Origin: a virus
Length of the DNA: 33,428 bases
Direction: 5' to 3' (one strand)
Virus record (IMG/VR): IMGVR_UViG_3300044729_003371
Location: 1 to 33,428 of that record
Position numbers and translations under genes: made by a program. Of the stretch, positions 6,930-27,847 are shown one piece after another (positions within the stretch are counted from its first letter, which is position 1; each line of letters begins with the position of its first letter). Below the pieces are notes generated by a model. It saw only the letters and a program-made list of their open reading frames with translations. It searched no databases and was not told the origin of the DNA.

Positions 6930-7126
6930 TATTTTTTATTCCTTATTTCTTCTACTAAAATGCGAAGTTGGGAAACCTCTTGTTCTAGCCTATTTAGTCG
7001 ATCTTTATCCATTTGAATCTTTTTACATCGATCTTCATACTCTTTAATTGCGGCAGTATCAACAGATAAGATTGCCCCACTTGACATGTCACGAACCATT
7101 TTTTTATTCTTTACAGGAATTTTCAT
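6929..7126 (-). CDS. Small coiled-coil protein (65 aa)
   Basis: A short lysine-rich protein. Residues 25-62 form a likely coiled coil with heptad-like hydrophobics (IQMDKDRLNRLEQEVSQLRI). It is coupled on both sides: its ATG overlaps the stop of the DUF4815 gene by four bases (ATGA), and its stop overlaps the fibre gene start by one base. It is too small to be structural alone. A trimeric connector, assembly factor or minor baseplate component is possible, but function is unknown. Confidence 0.75.
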   Translation of the reverse strand: MKIPVKNKKMVRDMSSGAILSVDTAAIKEYEDRCKKIQMDKDRLNRLEQEVSQLRILVEEIRNKK

Positions 7127-10100
7127 GTTGCAATTATTCTGAGATTTTTAATTCTCGGTATTGATCGTGGGTCACTGGGCAATGTAGTTGTACTATTGGA
7201 ATACATTACAATCTTAATAGAAAATGATCTAAACTTCGATAGATTAAGACCTGTACTTGTGTACATTATTTCTCTGAAATCATCAAAGTTTTGTGAGTAC
7301 CCTGAATCATTGCTTGTTAGTTGTGTGTATCCTATACTGCTAAAATCTCCTTCTCCGACAGGAAGAGGACGAACAAAAACTTGTATATTTGAATCGTAAG
7401 GGTTGCACAATGACATTTGAACATGTACATTTGTACCTTCAAATCCAGGTTCAAGTGTTACTTGTTTGGTGATATATCTTGCATCACTTGGAGCAGTAGC
7501 ACCTAAATTTGTTGGAAACAGTTCTAAATTTGTTGCGATTACATTATTATTATTTATCTGATTTGCAACAATAACATAATTTGATGTTTCAGTATCTAAA
7601 ACCGGAGAAACATATTGATCGCCAATCATATTGACTAAAATTTCCGAGAACTTACCTGTTCCGAGATTTCTTGTCGATTTATTAGATGGTCTGTCGATGT
7701 TTTTGTTTGGTTGTATAGATTTGAACGATCCGTTTATATCCTCCATCAAACCCCTTTCACTTAAGAAAATTGAAGTATTCGATGGAAGTATCTGGTTAAA
7801 ATTAATACGCATCATATCAAAGAATGTATTTGAATTGTAGTTTTCGATTAAATTCTCATATTTAATATTTCCTGCTTGTGGCGAAAATTTACATGCATGA
7901 ATTGTAAATTTGATTGAGTCGTTTTCCTTTTTAGTCAAAGTTCCACTATTTTGTGGTAAGAATAAACTTCTCACTCCAGGTTGTTTTGATGCTTTGATAT
8001 CTGTTTCGGCTTCTGAAAGTTTAATTATATTTTGTCCGACTTCTGCCCCAAAAACTGTGTATAGATTGCTGTTTGAGATCAGCGAAATGCAGTATTCTTC
8101 TCCAGAAATTAAATAGATTGGGCTTGTGAACTCAAATATTGTTTCTGTCGATCCATTCGAAGATGTTGTTATATCTGAAGAATATACAGTGGTTTCCCCA
8201 AATGGCATCACCTTTGATGGGTGTGGATAACCAGATTGTGTTGGCTTTAGTAAAAGCGTGATTGGAGAATTCGCATCTTCATCCTTTGTTGCAAATGAAA
8301 CCCCAATCTTCTTTACAAAAATTCCATTTGCATACTTGACTGGATCAACAAAGAATGTTTGACTTATTGGATCTGTAAATCCAAAAAAGTCTGTCGATAA
8401 CAACTCTGTCAGATTTGACTGTATTTTATTTGTTTTAACAGATCTGCGCCGTATTGTTGCAGATCTAGTTGATAAAATTCCATCTTCGTTTAGTGTATCA
8501 ACTGTTCCAGATGAATTGAAAATTGCATCCGCAGCCATTGAAGTGTTTTTGGGATCGTTTGTTTCGCTGTCGGTAATTCTAAAAACTCTTCGTCCAGACA
8601 AGAAATGATTTTCTTGATCTTGATTCATGAGATATTTTAACGAATTTACTTCACCGAGATTTGATGTTATTTGTGAACCGCCTGTGCAATATGCTGTGAT
8701 ATTAACATTATCCAAGAAAACATAAAACTTGGTGTTTGGCTTGAGTCCCTTTGCGGACATCTCAATTTCACTATCCCTCATGAAAGGGACCACATCTTTA
8801 CGAATTAATTTAGAGATTGACTTTCTCTTAAACCCTTCAGGAGTTCCGGATTTAAATGTATTTCCAAGGCTTATTCCTTTGGTTCCTGCGACAACAGAAT
8901 TCCTAACATCAATGATGTTTTGTTTGGTGTTAATTTCATTTGCAATTTCCCTTCCATACCAAATCGATTCCCAATCGTTCCATTGAGTTCCGAATCCAGA
9001 ACCAAATTGCCAAGCATCATTCTCACCATCAACATTTACCTTAACTGATGCTGTAATTGAGTCATCAAACCAAAAATCTGCTGAAGGATTCAATTTCAAT
9101 GTCCCCAGATAATTGAAGACGCTAGATGGATTTATTGGAAATGTTTTTGTTGCAAGTGGTTGAGATACCTCTACCGTAGTTGTATAATCAAGAGTAACTA
9201 TTCCATCCAAAGATGATGTTAAACCCGATACCTCAATTGGTCCTGTAATTCCAAATGCCCTAGAAATAAATGGGGGGCGCAATTCATTCTTCTCAAAATC
9301 AATTGATGATTTATACATTGGGTTTGAAATATCGCCAATATTATGTCCCTTGAATTGATCTACTAAAATTCCCTTCTTTGGAATCTCTAAATTATTTTCA
9401 TCGACTACAGAAAGAGACTTTGCTTCTTGTTCAAGTAGCGACAATGTTGTATAATATTCCACTGCCTCAATTCTTTTCTCAAGATCACCAATATCTCTCA
9501 TGGTGTATCTCTTATTTTCATTAAACCGTACAGATACATCTTTTTCATCAAAAGTGTAGGGATTTAATGTGACAGTATACAAAGTCATAGAGTTAGGATC
9601 ATCAGGTGGAGTCTGTGCATCCAGACTAGGAATGCCTTTGATAATGGAAAACTTCCTATCTCTAGTTAAAACAACCTTATCTGTTCTTGGAAGATAGTGT
9701 TGATAAGAAAATTCTTGATCATTTGCTGCTGTATTAATTGGGAACCAAGGATAATTAATTACATTTCCACTTGCTCCACGATCTGGTCTAAAGTCAATAA
9801 CATCAGCAAGATCATATCTCTTTCCTGTCGTTCTACTTGTATACGACGGAATTTGTGAATATGAATCAGAATATGAGTCAACTGTGAATGGTCCTCTGAC
9901 ACCCGTTCTATTGTAAATGACAAGAGATGCTTCAAATGGTCCGGTCACTCCAGTAACACCGGATGAAAGCACCAATCTAGACCAGTCGTAAAGGTTGTCT
10001 CTCTGTCCGTTATCAAATGTAAAATATTGCTTCAATTGCGATCTTACATCTTTTGTTCCCGTGATAGAAAGTATCTCAACAACATCAACCTTTCCACCAA

Positions 10101-12069
10101 GGTATAGAACTGTATTCGAATACTGATCTGATGTCAGTCCACTAAACTGACCAGTAAACCCACCAGCAGTTGGTCCCATTTCAATTATATCTCTAACTTT
10201 AGATCTTAATTGAGAACCATCAATAGCCGAAACATCTATACTAGTAACGATATACGCCTTTTGTCCCTGCGTTACACCGATTCCCTCTAAAGTCAAATCA
10301 AGTGTTTGGGATGAAGTTTTATATGCCGTTCCGCCTATTGCAACACCATTACTATTAAATACAATCACATCTTCATCTGGCAAATTTGTGTAATCTGCCG
10401 GAGAAGAAAATGAAACATTCGACGGGGATGATGTATAATCTGTAACATTTAATGTTCCTCTGCACTTTCCGCTACTTTGTACGGTTGGAAAATTTCCAGA
10501 GCCAAATTGAATTTCAAAAAACCCTGCAATAGCATAATCAGCGTCAGTAACAGTTTTGCCACGGGTTCCTGTTGGGAACTCATACAAAAGATTACTATTT
10601 TGCAAATTGATAAGTCCACCACTTCCGGTTATGGAAAATGCGTGGGTTGTTCCTGTAGAGAAAGAAGATATTCTTTTTACTTCATCAAACGAAGCAGTGC
10701 CTTGCATCTCAACATTAAATAAATGTAGATTGTAAATTTGATTTGCGGTGTTATATGGTTCTATCCATCTTACTCTTGCTGTACCAATAATGTCGAGTGA
10801 TGATCCACTTGAACCTCTACTTAGATTGTAAAGAGGTTGTGTATTAAACTGCTCTGCCCCATTCAAACTACCTGTCATCCCTGAAAATTGAACTCGGCAA
10901 TATGGTCCAAGAGAGCGATTGAAATATAAATCTGAAACTGTTCTAATATGATTTGAATCTCTTGTTGCATCTATCGGAAGTCTGGTTATTCCTTGAGTTT
11001 CAAATTCGTATCCAAAAATGTATGCTTTTCCTGGCTCAAGATCAGCAAACAAATTTCCTGTTTGCCCATCGGATGTAATTCCAGGACCACTCTGTATCGT
11101 AATTTCAAATGGCCTTACGGTATAGTTACCCGATTCATCATATGTTCTACGAGCCAGAGTATCCTCAAGAGAAGCATAGTCTGGATATTTTTCAATCTTA
11201 ATTGGACTTCCATCGACAAAACGAATAAACTCTATAAAGTCTTTTCTAGAAAAGTTGTCAGTAGAACTTGTATCTGCTGCCGTAAATGACTGCTGTGAAA
11301 TTCTTAAATCAATCTTAAATCGATCTGCGCCGGGAGCATTATAATTATATGCGCCATATGCAGGATCATTTAGTGTGTTATCATCTTCCGATTGCACAAA
11401 ATTTCTTAAAACATCAAATCCAATACGAGTTGTAGGTTCGTCATAAACACGAACTTGATTTCCATCAGATCCCGAAAGTGAGTATGCACCCAATGACTGA
11501 AAGTCATTAAGTACAAAATACCCTTCTACAAATCTAACTCCTCTATCAACTGAAACGATTAAAGAATTACCAACCGGATAAACATAAGAATTTCCTGTAA
11601 TATTTGCGCTTATGTATGAACCGTTTGATGCCGTTCCACCAATTTCATCCTCAAATGCAAATGCAGTTCCTCCTTCAAGATACTCATAAAAAATTACAGG
11701 AATATTGTCAATGGAGGATCCTGAATATCCATGTTCCGCATGAACTACTTTTGCCTTTGCTCTGTTATTAGAAAATATAGTAGTCCCAATAAAATCTTTT
11801 ACATCATTTGTTCCCGATAATCCCGACACACGGGCAAATTTTAAACTATTAACTGTAATTTTTCCATCAAGAACCATACTACCTTCTTCAAAAACATGAG
11901 AACCAAATCTCTCAATTTGATTCTGAAGAATGGATTGTATTTGCGTTAGTTCTCTGGCTTGCACCCCATATCCAGGACGAAACATAATCCGAAGAAATTT
12001 TTTATCTTCATTAAAATCATCGTAATAAGGATCTGAGTTAAATATTTGTGAATTATACGGTGTTGTCAT
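7123..12069 (-). CDS. DUF4815-type giant baseplate/tail structural protein (1648 aa)
   Basis: The N-terminus (YNSQIFNSDPYYDDFNEDKK, then FRPGYGVQARELTQIQSILQ) is the hallmark of the DUF4815 structural proteins of marine T4-like phages. The first 600 residues alternate beta-strands with short helices. A region around residues 860-890 (RDIGDLEKRIEAVEYYTTLSLLEQEA) is a likely coiled coil. The C-terminal third is beta-rich, and its last strand ends IPRIKNLRIIAT. An AAGGT Shine-Dalgarno lies eight bases before the ATG. It follows the gp8-like gene by nine bases, so it occupies the position of T4 gp9/gp10, and a peripheral wedge or fibre-attachment role is inferred from position. There is no visible enzymatic domain. 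Confidence 0.9.
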   Translation of the reverse strand: MTTPYNSQIFNSDPYYDDFNEDKKFLRIMFRPGYGVQARELTQIQSILQNQIERFGSHVFEEGSMVLDGKITVNSLKFARVSGLSGTNDVKDFIGTTIFSNNRAKAKVVHAEHGYSGSSIDNIPVIFYEYLEGGTAFAFEDEIGGTASNGSYISANITGNSYVYPVGNSLIVSVDRGVRFVEGYFVLNDFQSLGAYSLSGSDGNQVRVYDEPTTRIGFDVLRNFVQSEDDNTLNDPAYGAYNYNAPGADRFKIDLRISQQSFTAADTSSTDNFSRKDFIEFIRFVDGSPIKIEKYPDYASLEDTLARRTYDESGNYTVRPFEITIQSGPGITSDGQTGNLFADLEPGKAYIFGYEFETQGITRLPIDATRDSNHIRTVSDLYFNRSLGPYCRVQFSGMTGSLNGAEQFNTQPLYNLSRGSSGSSLDIIGTARVRWIEPYNTANQIYNLHLFNVEMQGTASFDEVKRISSFSTGTTHAFSITGSGGLINLQNSNLLYEFPTGTRGKTVTDADYAIAGFFEIQFGSGNFPTVQSSGKCRGTLNVTDYTSSPSNVSFSSPADYTNLPDEDVIVFNSNGVAIGGTAYKTSSQTLDLTLEGIGVTQGQKAYIVTSIDVSAIDGSQLRSKVRDIIEMGPTAGGFTGQFSGLTSDQYSNTVLYLGGKVDVVEILSITGTKDVRSQLKQYFTFDNGQRDNLYDWSRLVLSSGVTGVTGPFEASLVIYNRTGVRGPFTVDSYSDSYSQIPSYTSRTTGKRYDLADVIDFRPDRGASGNVINYPWFPINTAANDQEFSYQHYLPRTDKVVLTRDRKFSIIKGIPSLDAQTPPDDPNSMTLYTVTLNPYTFDEKDVSVRFNENKRYTMRDIGDLEKRIEAVEYYTTLSLLEQEAKSLSVVDENNLEIPKKGILVDQFKGHNIGDISNPMYKSSIDFEKNELRPPFISRAFGITGPIEVSGLTSSLDGIVTLDYTTTVEVSQPLATKTFPINPSSVFNYLGTLKLNPSADFWFDDSITASVKVNVDGENDAWQFGSGFGTQWNDWESIWYGREIANEINTKQNIIDVRNSVVAGTKGISLGNTFKSGTPEGFKRKSISKLIRKDVVPFMRDSEIEMSAKGLKPNTKFYVFLDNVNITAYCTGGSQITSNLGEVNSLKYLMNQDQENHFLSGRRVFRITDSETNDPKNTSMAADAIFNSSGTVDTLNEDGILSTRSATIRRRSVKTNKIQSNLTELLSTDFFGFTDPISQTFFVDPVKYANGIFVKKIGVSFATKDEDANSPITLLLKPTQSGYPHPSKVMPFGETTVYSSDITTSSNGSTETIFEFTSPIYLISGEEYCISLISNSNLYTVFGAEVGQNIIKLSEAETDIKASKQPGVRSLFLPQNSGTLTKKENDSIKFTIHACKFSPQAGNIKYENLIENYNSNTFFDMMRINFNQILPSNTSIFLSERGLMEDINGSFKSIQPNKNIDRPSNKSTRNLGTGKFSEILVNMIGDQYVSPVLDTETSNYVIVANQINNNNVIATNLELFPTNLGATAPSDARYITKQVTLEPGFEGTNVHVQMSLCNPYDSNIQVFVRPLPVGEGDFSSIGYTQLTSNDSGYSQNFDDFREIMYTSTGLNLSKFRSFSIKIVMYSNSTTTLPSDPRSIPRIKNLRIIAT

Positions 12070-19199: not shown

Positions 19200-19877
19200 T
19201 TAACATCCTGGTCCAGGGTAATAACCTTTTTTTTTCATCGCCAAAATATATTCTTTATTTGATACGGGTTTTCCATTCAAATAAAACTGATTATCAATAT
19301 TTAGGACAAATCTATCCCGTCTTGCGCTCCAGTCTGTTCTAATATTCATTATTAAATATTTATCGTCGTAATTACTAGTATTTCCTGAATCAAATGCTCT
19401 AACTAAAAAATTGCTGGCGAGACCGCCCACCGAAAAAGACAAATAATTTGATTCATTAAATTTAAAATCTGATGGCACATTTAACCGCTTTGGGGCGATT
19501 TTCTCAATCCCGTCTATAAATCCACACAATTTTCCCGTATCAATATTCAAATATAAACTCGGAGGAAATTCCCCACCTAAAAGTGCATATTTAATAGGAC
19601 CATCACCAGGACCACAACAATTGGAGAGAGTAAATCTATCTCCTGCATTTGGTGGAAAATATGTTCCGTTTTTGGCCGCTGATGAACACCTTGTATAGTT
19701 AACCGATATCTTTAGATCATTACACCCATTATCACAAACCCTTTGATTCTCGTATATGGGAATTCTTCCAAATGTTTCATTGGTATCTTTCCAAGTAAAC
19801 ATACAGTTACTTGCTATAGGACCGAATCCACCAGGATAGTAATATTCAATCGGATATTGATTGCTCGTCATTGGCAT
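19200..19877 (-). CDS. Ig-like-domain protein next to PAAR (225 aa)
   Basis: Family not recognised as a whole. Residues about 92-185 resemble the putative Ig domain of large surface proteins (IKYALLGGEFPPSLYLNIDT, then GKLCGFIDG, the usual 'sum-is-greater, fragment of a theoretical structure' pattern). The N-terminus is aromatic (YYYPGGFG). Nine cysteines are scattered through it, including VCDNGC at 48-52 and a CC pair at 87-88. It lies between gp5 and PAAR genes and overlaps the preceding stop by one base (TAATG), so it probably belongs to the spike complex or its surroundings. Exact role unknown. Confidence 0.75.
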   Translation of the reverse strand: MPMTSNQYPIEYYYPGGFGPIASNCMFTWKDTNETFGRIPIYENQRVCDNGCNDLKISVNYTRCSSAAKNGTYFPPNAGDRFTLSNCCGPGDGPIKYALLGGEFPPSLYLNIDTGKLCGFIDGIEKIAPKRLNVPSDFKFNESNYLSFSVGGLASNFLVRAFDSGNTSNYDDKYLIMNIRTDWSARRDRFVLNIDNQFYLNGKPVSNKEYILAMKKKGYYPGPGC

Positions 19878-20479
19878 TAGAAATCACCGCCGTCAATGAT
19901 AGTAGGTGGATCTCCGACTACAAATAAAGGTGCATCAGGAACAATTTGTGTATCTAAATTTTCAGGAGTATACTGTGTGGAAAGAATTCGATCAAGTTTT
20001 TCTTGCTGTTCAATATTATAAATCAATTTAGTACCTAATTCATAATCGTTGGCCCCATTGCCACTAACTCCCCCATAAATTACAGAGTTTTTAAGTAAAA
20101 CCCTTGTCTCATCTACAGATAAAGAACCATCAAATTTAAATTCTTCTAATTCTTGCTTAGTTCCGAATCCCCCTCCGAATGCCAAAGGAGAAACTTCGGC
20201 GGGAACTGGAATTCCAAATGCTACTATTTCTTTAGATGGAGATTGTGGAAATATTTCTTTCAGATTTGCATCAACAATTTCTAAATTGTTCAACAACTCG
20301 TCATTAAGCAAAGCATCGTCATATGTAGATGGAATTTCAATTGTTGGAATTTCCGATAAACTTATAAACTCTTGTCTAATATTTTTATTTGGAATTAAAA
20401 CCCCGTCAAAATCCGGAAGATCAACCGCTACATCTTTGACTTTTGGAGAACTGCCTTTATATGGAGTTGGTCCGATCAT
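19877..20479 (-). CDS. Hypothetical acidic protein after gp5 (200 aa)
   Basis: Not recognised. It is an acidic protein, rich in Asp, Pro and Ile, with low-complexity stretches and little predicted hydrophobic core. The first 60 residues look extended (MIGPTPYKGSSPKVKD), and it ends with FVVGDPPTIIDGG. No transmembrane segment or cysteine is seen. It begins two bases after the gp5 stop with a strong AGAGGT Shine-Dalgarno inside the end of gp5, so it is made together with gp5. Position between gp5 and PAAR suggests a spike-associated linker or assembly factor. Confidence 0.75.
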   Translation of the reverse strand: MIGPTPYKGSSPKVKDVAVDLPDFDGVLIPNKNIRQEFISLSEIPTIEIPSTYDDALLNDELLNNLEIVDANLKEIFPQSPSKEIVAFGIPVPAEVSPLAFGGGFGTKQELEEFKFDGSLSVDETRVLLKNSVIYGGVSGNGANDYELGTKLIYNIEQQEKLDRILSTQYTPENLDTQIVPDAPLFVVGDPPTIIDGGDF

Positions 20480-26069: not shown

Positions 26070-26924
26070 ATGACAAAATTTGTAGACAATTTCATTGCAA
26101 ATATGCGAGGAAAGGGATTTGCGAGGGCAAATCGCTATCTAGTTCTAATTCAACCTAATCCATATGTCGCATCTCAAATTGGAATTCCATCAAATACTAT
26201 AACACAAAGACTTGCAATGACATGCGCTTCTGTGTCTCAACCGTCTAAATCATTTACAACTCACGAGATGTCTGTAACTCAACCAGTCAGGCTTATTCCA
26301 TATGGAATCAATACTAATAATACCGCTGGCGTTTCAATTGAGTTTTATGTTTTGGGCGATATGTTTGAAAAAAACCTGTTTCAATTGTGGCAAAATATCA
26401 TAATCGATCCAATAACAAAACAACAATCATATTACAATGATTATGCTAAAGGATCTTCAATAATCATCGCACAAATACCAAACATAGTTTCTTCGTTTGA
26501 GGGAAGTCTGAAAGCCATAGTTGAATTGGAACAAATCGCCGGAATAAAGTTGTCTGAAATATATCCTTACAATTTCACTGTAAATGGTGGGTCACAAAAC
26601 TATGCATCTGCAAACGAACCATTGAAAGTAAAAGTTGATTTCATGTTTCGTGAAATCAATCTAATAAAAGAACCAAAACCATTTGACACTAACAGTGGAA
26701 TTCGTCTTGTTGATGATAATGGAAACGACAGAGAACAAGTAAGGTCTGTGGCAGAAAATATAATTGCAAGACTCGGTTCGCCAAGACAGACCACAATCGA
26801 AGAAGCACAACTAGACTTCGAAGAAAACCAAAGAAAACAAGCACAAATGCACCTTGAAAGATCCGTGCTACAACGAGGTGTTACATTCATAACACAGGCT
26901 CAAGGTTTACTAGGATCACTTTGA
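26070..26924 (+). CDS. 54: Tail-tube-fold protein, probably baseplate tube initiator gp54
   Basis: The N-terminus (FVDNFIANMRGKGFARANRY, then LVLI) and the alternating strands that follow fit the tube-protein fold shared by T4 gp19, gp48 and gp54. A conserved end-of-fold strand, LKVKVDFMFREINL, lies near residue 195. At 284 residues with a helical C-terminal tail (residues 220-284), it is longer than tube protein gp19 (163) and close to gp54 (320). It sits with gp48 (across the divergent gap) and upstream of gp26 and the tape measure, which favours gp54. A diverged gp19 is the alternative. Confidence 0.7.
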   Translation: MTKFVDNFIANMRGKGFARANRYLVLIQPNPYVASQIGIPSNTITQRLAMTCASVSQPSKSFTTHEMSVTQPVRLIPYGINTNNTAGVSIEFYVLGDMFEKNLFQLWQNIIIDPITKQQSYYNDYAKGSSIIIAQIPNIVSSFEGSLKAIVELEQIAGIKLSEIYPYNFTVNGGSQNYASANEPLKVKVDFMFREINLIKEPKPFDTNSGIRLVDDNGNDREQVRSVAENIIARLGSPRQTTIEEAQLDFEENQRKQAQMHLERSVLQRGVTFITQAQGLLGSL

Positions 26925-26942: not shown

Positions 26943-27656
26943 ATGAGTACATTATCAAATTTAATACCAACAACGCCATCGTATGAAATAACGCTTCCCA
27001 GTGATGGAAGTAAAATAGAATTCAGACCATTTTTAGTTAAAGAAGAAAAAATTCTTCTTATAGCATCAGAATCTAAAAATGAGAAGGAAATGGTCCGTGC
27101 AATACAAGATGTCGTATCTGCTTGTACATTTGGGAAATTGAATATGTCCAGTGCCCCAATGGTGGATATTGAATATCTCTTCCTAAAAATCCGTTCAAAG
27201 TCAGTAGGGGAAAGTGCAAAACCGACTCTGAAATGTAAGAAATGTAGCAAACTGAACACCTTAGAAATAAATCTAGACACCATTGAGGCAGAAAAAAGTC
27301 CCGAACACAATAAAAAAATAGAAATATCGAAAAATGTAATAATTGAGATGAGATATCCTAAATTTAGTGATGTTGAGTTGATACAAAATGTCAATACGGA
27401 TGCCGAAAAACTCGTAAACATGATGGCGGTTTGCATCGAAAAAATCTACACACCCGAAAACACATTCAACACAAAAGAACTGTCTACAAAAGAAGTCATA
27501 GAATTCATCGACAATCTAACACAAGTTCAATTTAGAATGTTAACAAAATTCTTCGAAACAATGCCCCAAGTAACAAAAAAGGTAGACTACAAATGCAAAC
27601 ATTGTGGGAGTGATGAGTCAATTACTCTGCGAGGTGCTCAGGATTTTTTCTCATAA
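26943..27656 (+). CDS. 26: Baseplate hub assembly protein gp26-like, zinc ribbon (frame-0 product)
   Basis: A member of the T4 baseplate gp26 family: the N-terminal IEFRPFLVKEEKILLIASES is characteristic. Two CxxC knuckles, Cys98/Cys101 (CKKC) and Cys218/Cys221 (CKHC), probably bind one zinc. The frame ends GAQDFFS at 27656. A TAGGAGA Shine-Dalgarno precedes the ATG. It lies directly before the tape-measure gene, the position of lambda G and other tail chaperones, and its last codons form a canonical slippery sequence (see the frameshift entries). The normal product has 237 residues. Confidence 0.85.
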   Translation: MSTLSNLIPTTPSYEITLPSDGSKIEFRPFLVKEEKILLIASESKNEKEMVRAIQDVVSACTFGKLNMSSAPMVDIEYLFLKIRSKSVGESAKPTLKCKKCSKLNTLEINLDTIEAEKSPEHNKKIEISKNVIIEMRYPKFSDVELIQNVNTDAEKLVNMMAVCIEKIYTPENTFNTKELSTKEVIEFIDNLTQVQFRMLTKFFETMPQVTKKVDYKCKHCGSDESITLRGAQDFFS

Positions 27657-27847
27657 CGACCTCTCATGATAGCCTGTTAAATTTCTTTGAAACTAATTTC
27701 GCAATGATGCAACACCACAAGTACTCATTAGCCGAAATTGAAAACATGATTCCGTGGGAGCGTCGAATATACATCGAATTACTAATACAGCACTTGAAGG
27801 AAGAGAAAGAGAAAATGGAAGCCGAAAGAATGAACAGAAATAGTTAA
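26943..27847 (+). CDS. Predicted -1 frameshift fusion gp26-extension (tail chaperone GT analogue)
   Basis: Reading 26943-27650 and then 27650-27847 gives a 301-residue product. The 65 extra residues begin LITTSHDSLLNFFETNFAMM and continue with the compact helical part YSLAEIENMIPWERRIYIEL, then a charged tail LKEEKEKMEAERMNRNS. The extension has no start with a Shine-Dalgarno: the first in-frame ATG pair at 27704 lies in the middle of a conserved-looking helix. It fills the otherwise gene-free 204 bases before the tape measure. In lambda and many phages a frameshift of this kind makes the chaperone that coats the tape measure. This assignment is inference. Confidence 0.65.
27644..27650 (+). 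other. Slippery heptamer T TTT TTC for predicted -1 frameshift
   Basis: In the gp26 frame the codons are GAT TTT TTC TCA TAA, so the last six bases before TCA plus the preceding T make T TTT TTC, a perfect X-XXY-YYZ site four codons from the stop. After a slip the ribosome continues at C27650 into a frame open for 65 codons. I see no strong downstream stem; only a weak 4-bp pairing (TCAT 651-654 with ATGA 666-669) is visible. Confidence 0.75.

Follow-up and report, generated by a model that had tools for sequence, protein, structure and literature searches.

Programmed −1 frameshifting in the lambda tail genes G and GT, and in their counterparts, was reportedly described by Xu, Hendrix and Duda in 2004. 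In lambda, a short chaperone gene lies just 5′ of the tape measure gene, and a −1 shift near its 3′ end adds a C-terminal domain (PMC5009743). The phage locus considered here shares this layout, in that the gene precedes the tape measure gene, has a −1 site near its 3′ end and would gain a C-terminal domain, but it differs in the slippery sequence, T_TTT_TTC, in the encoded protein, a PF12322 protein with paired Cys motifs that is far from gpG in sequence, and in the position of the stop codon, one codon past the slip. The −1 signal of E. coli dnaX consists of an upstream Shine-Dalgarno (SD)-like element, a slippery heptamer and a downstream structure. The signal of our phage has the same three-part layout; however, the slip site of dnaX is A_AAA_AAG (PMC5009743), whereas that of the phage is T6N, and the phage stem encloses a loop of ~84 nt and has its 3′ arm within conserved extension codons. 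In phage Adele (Vandenendeviridae / Andersonviridae), a −1 frameshift in the tail assembly chaperone (TAC) gene occurs at the polyT motif GTTTTT, which is conserved across families (PMC12846349). These are other phage families with another, invariant motif, whereas the kind of signal described here combines T6 with an SD-like element and a long-range stem.

Phage T4 gp26 and gp51 belong to the same protein families as the products of our locus, the short form corresponding to T4 gp26 and the long form to T4 gp51. In T4, the two forms come from two separate genes, 26 and 51, on opposite strands, whereas in our phage both are predicted to come from one gene by a −1 slip. The TAC genes of T4-like phages were reportedly identified by Vladimirov, Gautam and Davidson in 2022 (Virology 566:9-15). 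A passage of the PRFect paper cites that work for T4-like phages that have a short TAC gene and a long, fused one (PMC10885494), and a passage of the Adele paper refers to it for polyT slippery sites in the TAC-N genes of T4-like phages (PMC12846349). Given these two citations, the idea of a frameshifted T4-like TAC is already in the literature, and a first-pass annotation of the DNA studied here, which did not know of a chaperone role of gp26 as established for T4-like phages, has been overtaken on this point. The principle is thus already known; what may be new is the detailed RNA signal, namely the SD-like element and the long-range stem. The detail added here comprises the size of the conservation test, a start-codon test, these two elements and the breadth of the comparison.

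The −1 extension of the gp26-like gene and its conservation

The DNA analyzed, hereafter the window, is a viral contig of 33,428 bases from a marine T4-like phage (IMG/VR IMGVR_UViG_3300044729_003371, positions 1 to 33,428). The frameshift locus (Table 1) sits between an upstream tail-tube-like gene (26070-26924) and a downstream gene, the best PHROG matches of which are tape measures (phrog_58 and other tape-measure PHROGs). The gp26-like protein matches PF12322 (T4_baseplate) with an E-value of 1.1e-61 and 208.7 bits, above the curated cut-off of 24.5, and phrog_150 with an E-value of 1.2e-64 over positions 10-232 of that model. Its reading frame ends with GAT TTT TTC TCA TAA. The −1 frame re-reads C27650 and stays open for 65 codons (27650-27844, stop at 27845-27847), and the predicted fusion, which reads DFFLITTSHD across the junction, has 301 aa as compared with 237 aa for the short form. 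The extension matches phrog_634 (“baseplate hub assembly catalyst”) with an E-value of 1.4e-26 and also aligns to the C-terminus (231-281) of phrog_150, the gp26 family; because one part of the phrog_150 model matches gp26 and the other the extension, the model spans both. A tblastn search with the extension produced matches in 574 phage records. By homology, the extension is the gp51 domain, and both pieces of gp51, the PF12322 domain and the extension, are present at this locus, their joining in one protein being predicted. The first-pass annotation had placed a T_TTT_TTC heptamer beside the gp26 stop codon, followed by an open −1 frame of 65 residues in which the only ATG codons lie far inside and lack an SD sequence, and had called the next gene a tape measure; all of these readings agree with the sequence and with the PHROG matches, the heptamer lying one codon ahead of the TAA. 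In the database records examined, the extension is either annotated as a separate gene or not annotated, and many phage genomes may therefore need a joined gene here. Elsewhere in the window, a 1648-aa protein encoded among the baseplate genes (7123-12069, minus strand) matches only PHROGs of unknown function (phrog_358, E-value of 1e-280, and phrog_877), and two proteins encoded on the minus strand between gp5-like and PAAR-like genes (19200-19877 and 19877-20479) have no PHROG match.

Table 1 Features of the frameshift locus in the window and short-run sites at related loci
Feature	Coordinates	Strand	Basis
gp26-like gene, putative short tail assembly chaperone (TAC-N), 237 aa	26943..27656	+	PF12322, phrog_150, AlphaFold2
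GAGGTG, SD-like element (putative stimulator)	27631..27636	+	anti-SD energy; shuffle comparison
Slippery heptamer T_TTT_TTC	27644..27650	+	sequence; T6[CTA] in 157/157 + 22/22 loci
−1-frame extension, 65 codons + stop (gp51 domain; putative C-terminal part of TAC-NC)	27650..27847	+	phrog_634, phrog_150, tblastn
Zero-frame stop TAA, 3 nt past heptamer	27654..27656	+	sequence; locus comparison
5′ arm of long-range RNA stem, CGACCUCUCAUG, 6 nt past heptamer	27657..27668	+	fold, arm duplex, covariation
3′ arm of long-range RNA stem, CGUGGGAGCGUCG, within conserved PWER codons	27753..27765	+	fold, arm duplex, covariation
Tape measure protein gene, 841 aa	27861..30386	+	phrog_58 tail length tape measure, E 1.3e-12
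Short-run sites of Vibrio phage K353 and Ackermannviridae	L171 3190-3226; L172 3265-3301; L173 3205-3241; L174 3127-3163; L178 3262-3298		

Related loci were collected from viral contigs (80 through gp26 and 80 through the extension) and from three isolate phages, and removal of duplicates left 157 distinct loci, each of which contains both gp26 and the extension. The extension is in the −1 frame in all 157, and every one of them carries a T6 run at the same codons, followed by C (n = 113), T (n = 33) or A (n = 11); in the loci with T_TTT_TTA, Phe-Phe becomes Phe-Leu, yet the T run is preserved. The distance from the heptamer to the stop codon is 0, 3, 24 or 27 nt, with 3 nt in 116 and 0 nt in 25 of the 157 loci. 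Genome contigs from a separate genome collection, used as a hold-out, display the same arrangement, with the −1 extension and T6[C/T/A] at the same codons in 22 out of 22 loci. Furthermore, the codon preceding TTT ends in T in all 136 non-redundant loci, as compared with 62% expected by synonymous choice (log10 P of −29, a figure that is optimistic because the sequences are related). The comparison of loci confirms that the −1 break with its T6 run is not due to chance, and the slippery site that the first-pass annotation had proposed to look for at the stop in homologues is indeed kept.

Many records annotate the extension as a separate gene, gp51, as is the case for the Synechococcus myovirus S-PM2 and the Pelagibacter phages Mosig and HTVC008M, and such a gene might be started internally or by termination-reinitiation; an ATG is located close to the beginning of the extension in 38 of the 136 loci. 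However, ATG, GTG and TTG are all absent from the −1 frame before codon 18 in 67 of the 136 non-redundant loci, and a search for an SD-preceded start of the extension, the well-placed start that would speak for an independent gene, found none in any of the 136. In the window itself, the sole −1-frame start close to the junction, an ATG located 20 codons into the extension, lacks an SD sequence (anti-SD energy of +0.4 kcal/mol). Moreover, amino acid conservation of the extension begins at the slip site, upstream of the annotated gp51 starts, which fall inside the conserved domain or past the stop (one record omits gp51), and a separate gene gives no account of the conservation of T6. Hence, we regard a separately started gp51 as very improbable.

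Candidate stimulatory elements and the proposed slip

In the window, the SD-like element is GAGGTG, with a best anti-SD energy of −9.5 kcal/mol. Across the 136 loci, the SD-like strength is −6.09 kcal/mol as compared with −4.87 ± 0.10 in synonymous shuffles, a difference of ~12 sd, and the profile peaks 8-16 nt 5′ of the heptamer. Glu codons in this region are GAG in 42 out of 64 cases, against a background of 23%. Judged from these comparisons, there is selection on codon choice in favor of an SD-like element upstream of the heptamer.

On the downstream side, the computed RNA fold in the window (−26.2 kcal/mol, z of −2.63) has a long-range stem of 12 pairs with one bulge, the two arms of which form a duplex of −18.0 as compared with −5.7 for synonymous shuffles. 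This stem emerges only when ~115 nt or more are folded; a short hairpin right after the slip site was considered and rejected, folds of 40-80 nt of the window having given z above 0. Across loci, the arm duplex averages −12.5 kcal/mol, whereas synonymous shuffles give −6.0 ± 0.2 and pairing the arms of different loci gives −9.9 ± 0.2, and the fold z is −2.0 at the stem versus −0.8 to +0.3 in control stretches. In a codon alignment of 134 rows, columns +13 to +24 pair with columns +109 to +120, with C-G/U-A exchanges; the covariation score is 0.196 versus 0.131 and was reached in 0 of 500 shuffles, a slide of +2 nearly equaling it (0.194), and in the same test the counts of double-change pairs and of pair types were not above those of shuffles. 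Both arms show strong synonymous bias, at extension codons 4-5 and at the Arg codon of PWER. RNAalifold returned no consensus structure for an alignment of 34 sequences, whereas the 134-row codon alignment and the arm-duplex tests did show the stem. Because the stem is weak in some hold-out loci and RNAalifold gave a null result, it appears to be a common but not universal stimulator. Taken together, the synonymous-shuffle and alignment tests indicate that codon choice is selected for a long-range stem beginning 6 nt after the heptamer.

In our assessment, it is very probable that a programmed −1 slip, helped by the SD-like element and the stem, yields gp26 and gp26-51 as a chaperone pair; the slipping itself, its efficiency and the binding partners of the products are what we infer. 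Ribosomes translating gp26 would arrive at T_TTT_TTC, the P site then holding TTT and the A site TTC. Some of them, aided by GAGGTG upstream and by the long-range stem from 6 nt downstream, would slip back one base into the −1 frame and complete the gp26-51 fusion of 301 aa, whereas non-slipping ribosomes would terminate one codon on and produce gp26 of 237 aa. The short and long forms would then serve as TAC-N and TAC-NC, keeping the tape measure protein, whose gene comes next, in solution and bringing tail tube or hub subunits to it, like gpG/gpGT in lambda. A broader proposal, for which we see the chances as evenly balanced, is that a three-part signal, new for this gene, sets the chaperone ratio in marine T4-like phages: T_TTT_TTN would be preceded at ~7 nt by an SD-like element and followed at 6 nt by a stem that pairs ~84 nt away with the PWER codons. 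As the 3′ arm would be reached and opened only after a ribosome has slipped, such a signal could adjust itself to ribosome traffic.

The fusion could also be produced from mixed mRNAs if RNA polymerase, rather than the ribosome, slipped on the T run, and runs of T8 do occur at some loci. Nevertheless, most loci, the window included, have T6 followed by C, and a selected SD-like element together with a downstream stem at ribosome-friendly spacing fits ribosomes and not polymerase, which makes polymerase slippage highly improbable. Although homopolymers are error-prone and T4 gp51 is a one-frame gene, a sequencing or assembly error in a gene that truly has a single frame has a vanishingly small probability and is refuted for practical purposes by the recurrence of the identical break across 157 loci as well as in the isolate genomes of independent projects.

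Probable chaperone fold and relationship to T4 gp26 and gp51

The AlphaFold2 model of gp26 is of high confidence, with a pLDDT of 90.8. When its N-terminal domain (residues 1-98) was compared with solved structures, the best matches were 2ob9, the HK97 tail assembly chaperone (matching residues 1-88 with a Z of 7.9 over 87 residues, a score that common arrangements can also reach), 3fgx (7.7) and YqbN, 3klu (6.8), the next match having a Z of 4.3; Foldseek E-values were above 0.1. YqbN and 3fgx are of the same kind as 2ob9, which is titled a tail assembly chaperone. When solved structures were searched by sequence, neither gp26 nor the extension had a relative among them. On the strength of the fold matches to the model, the site before the tape measure gene and the short/long pair, the most likely identities of gp26 and gp26-51 are TAC-N and TAC-NC, like lambda G/GT. 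The frameshifted gp26 chaperone put forward in the first-pass annotation is supported for this phage by the conserved slip site, the lack of a start and the existence of fused homologues, but does not extend to T4 itself with its two genes on opposite strands.

Phage T4 gp51 is essential yet missing from the particle, and gp26 and gp51 are both listed as hub assembly chaperones (PMC3004832). Their interpretation as the short and long tail chaperones would offer a testable answer to this long-standing puzzle, with marine phages encoding both in one gene. T4 gp26 is the short form, whereas T4 gp51 contains both domains in one frame; its Tevenvirinae relatives likewise have a single frame for the gp26-like domain plus the extension, and these are the kind of fused homologues for which the earlier annotation had proposed a search. 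Citrobacter phage Merlin resembles T4, with a short gp26 and a one-frame long gp51 on the opposite strand. In a tree of gp26, gp51 and frameshift-type proteins, T4 gp26 and gp51 are placed on separate well-supported branches; the tree has long branches and a midpoint root and does not give the order of duplication.

The −1 extension with T6 is also found in Pelagibacter phage HTVC008M, Stenotrophomonas phage Ps15, Sinorhizobium phage phiM12, Aeromonas phage phiAS5 and Vibrio phage D525. Ackermannviridae and Vibrio phage K353 retain a −1-frame extension with a shorter T run at the site. Loss of the slippery site with the extension kept, which in close relatives would have told against frameshifting, was thus seen only in this distant clade. 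There, TTTTC, GTTTTTC or CTTTC replaces T6, and the slip site is non-canonical. In HTVC008M (L166, 3178-3240), a run of T8 lies directly before the stop codon, and transcript slippage there could add to ribosome slipping. T4 gp26 (L001, 3303-3929) weakly matches phrog_1140, “baseplate hub distal subunit” (E-value of 9e-4), a match suggesting that the gp26 family may have one more remote relative in the hub protein gp28.
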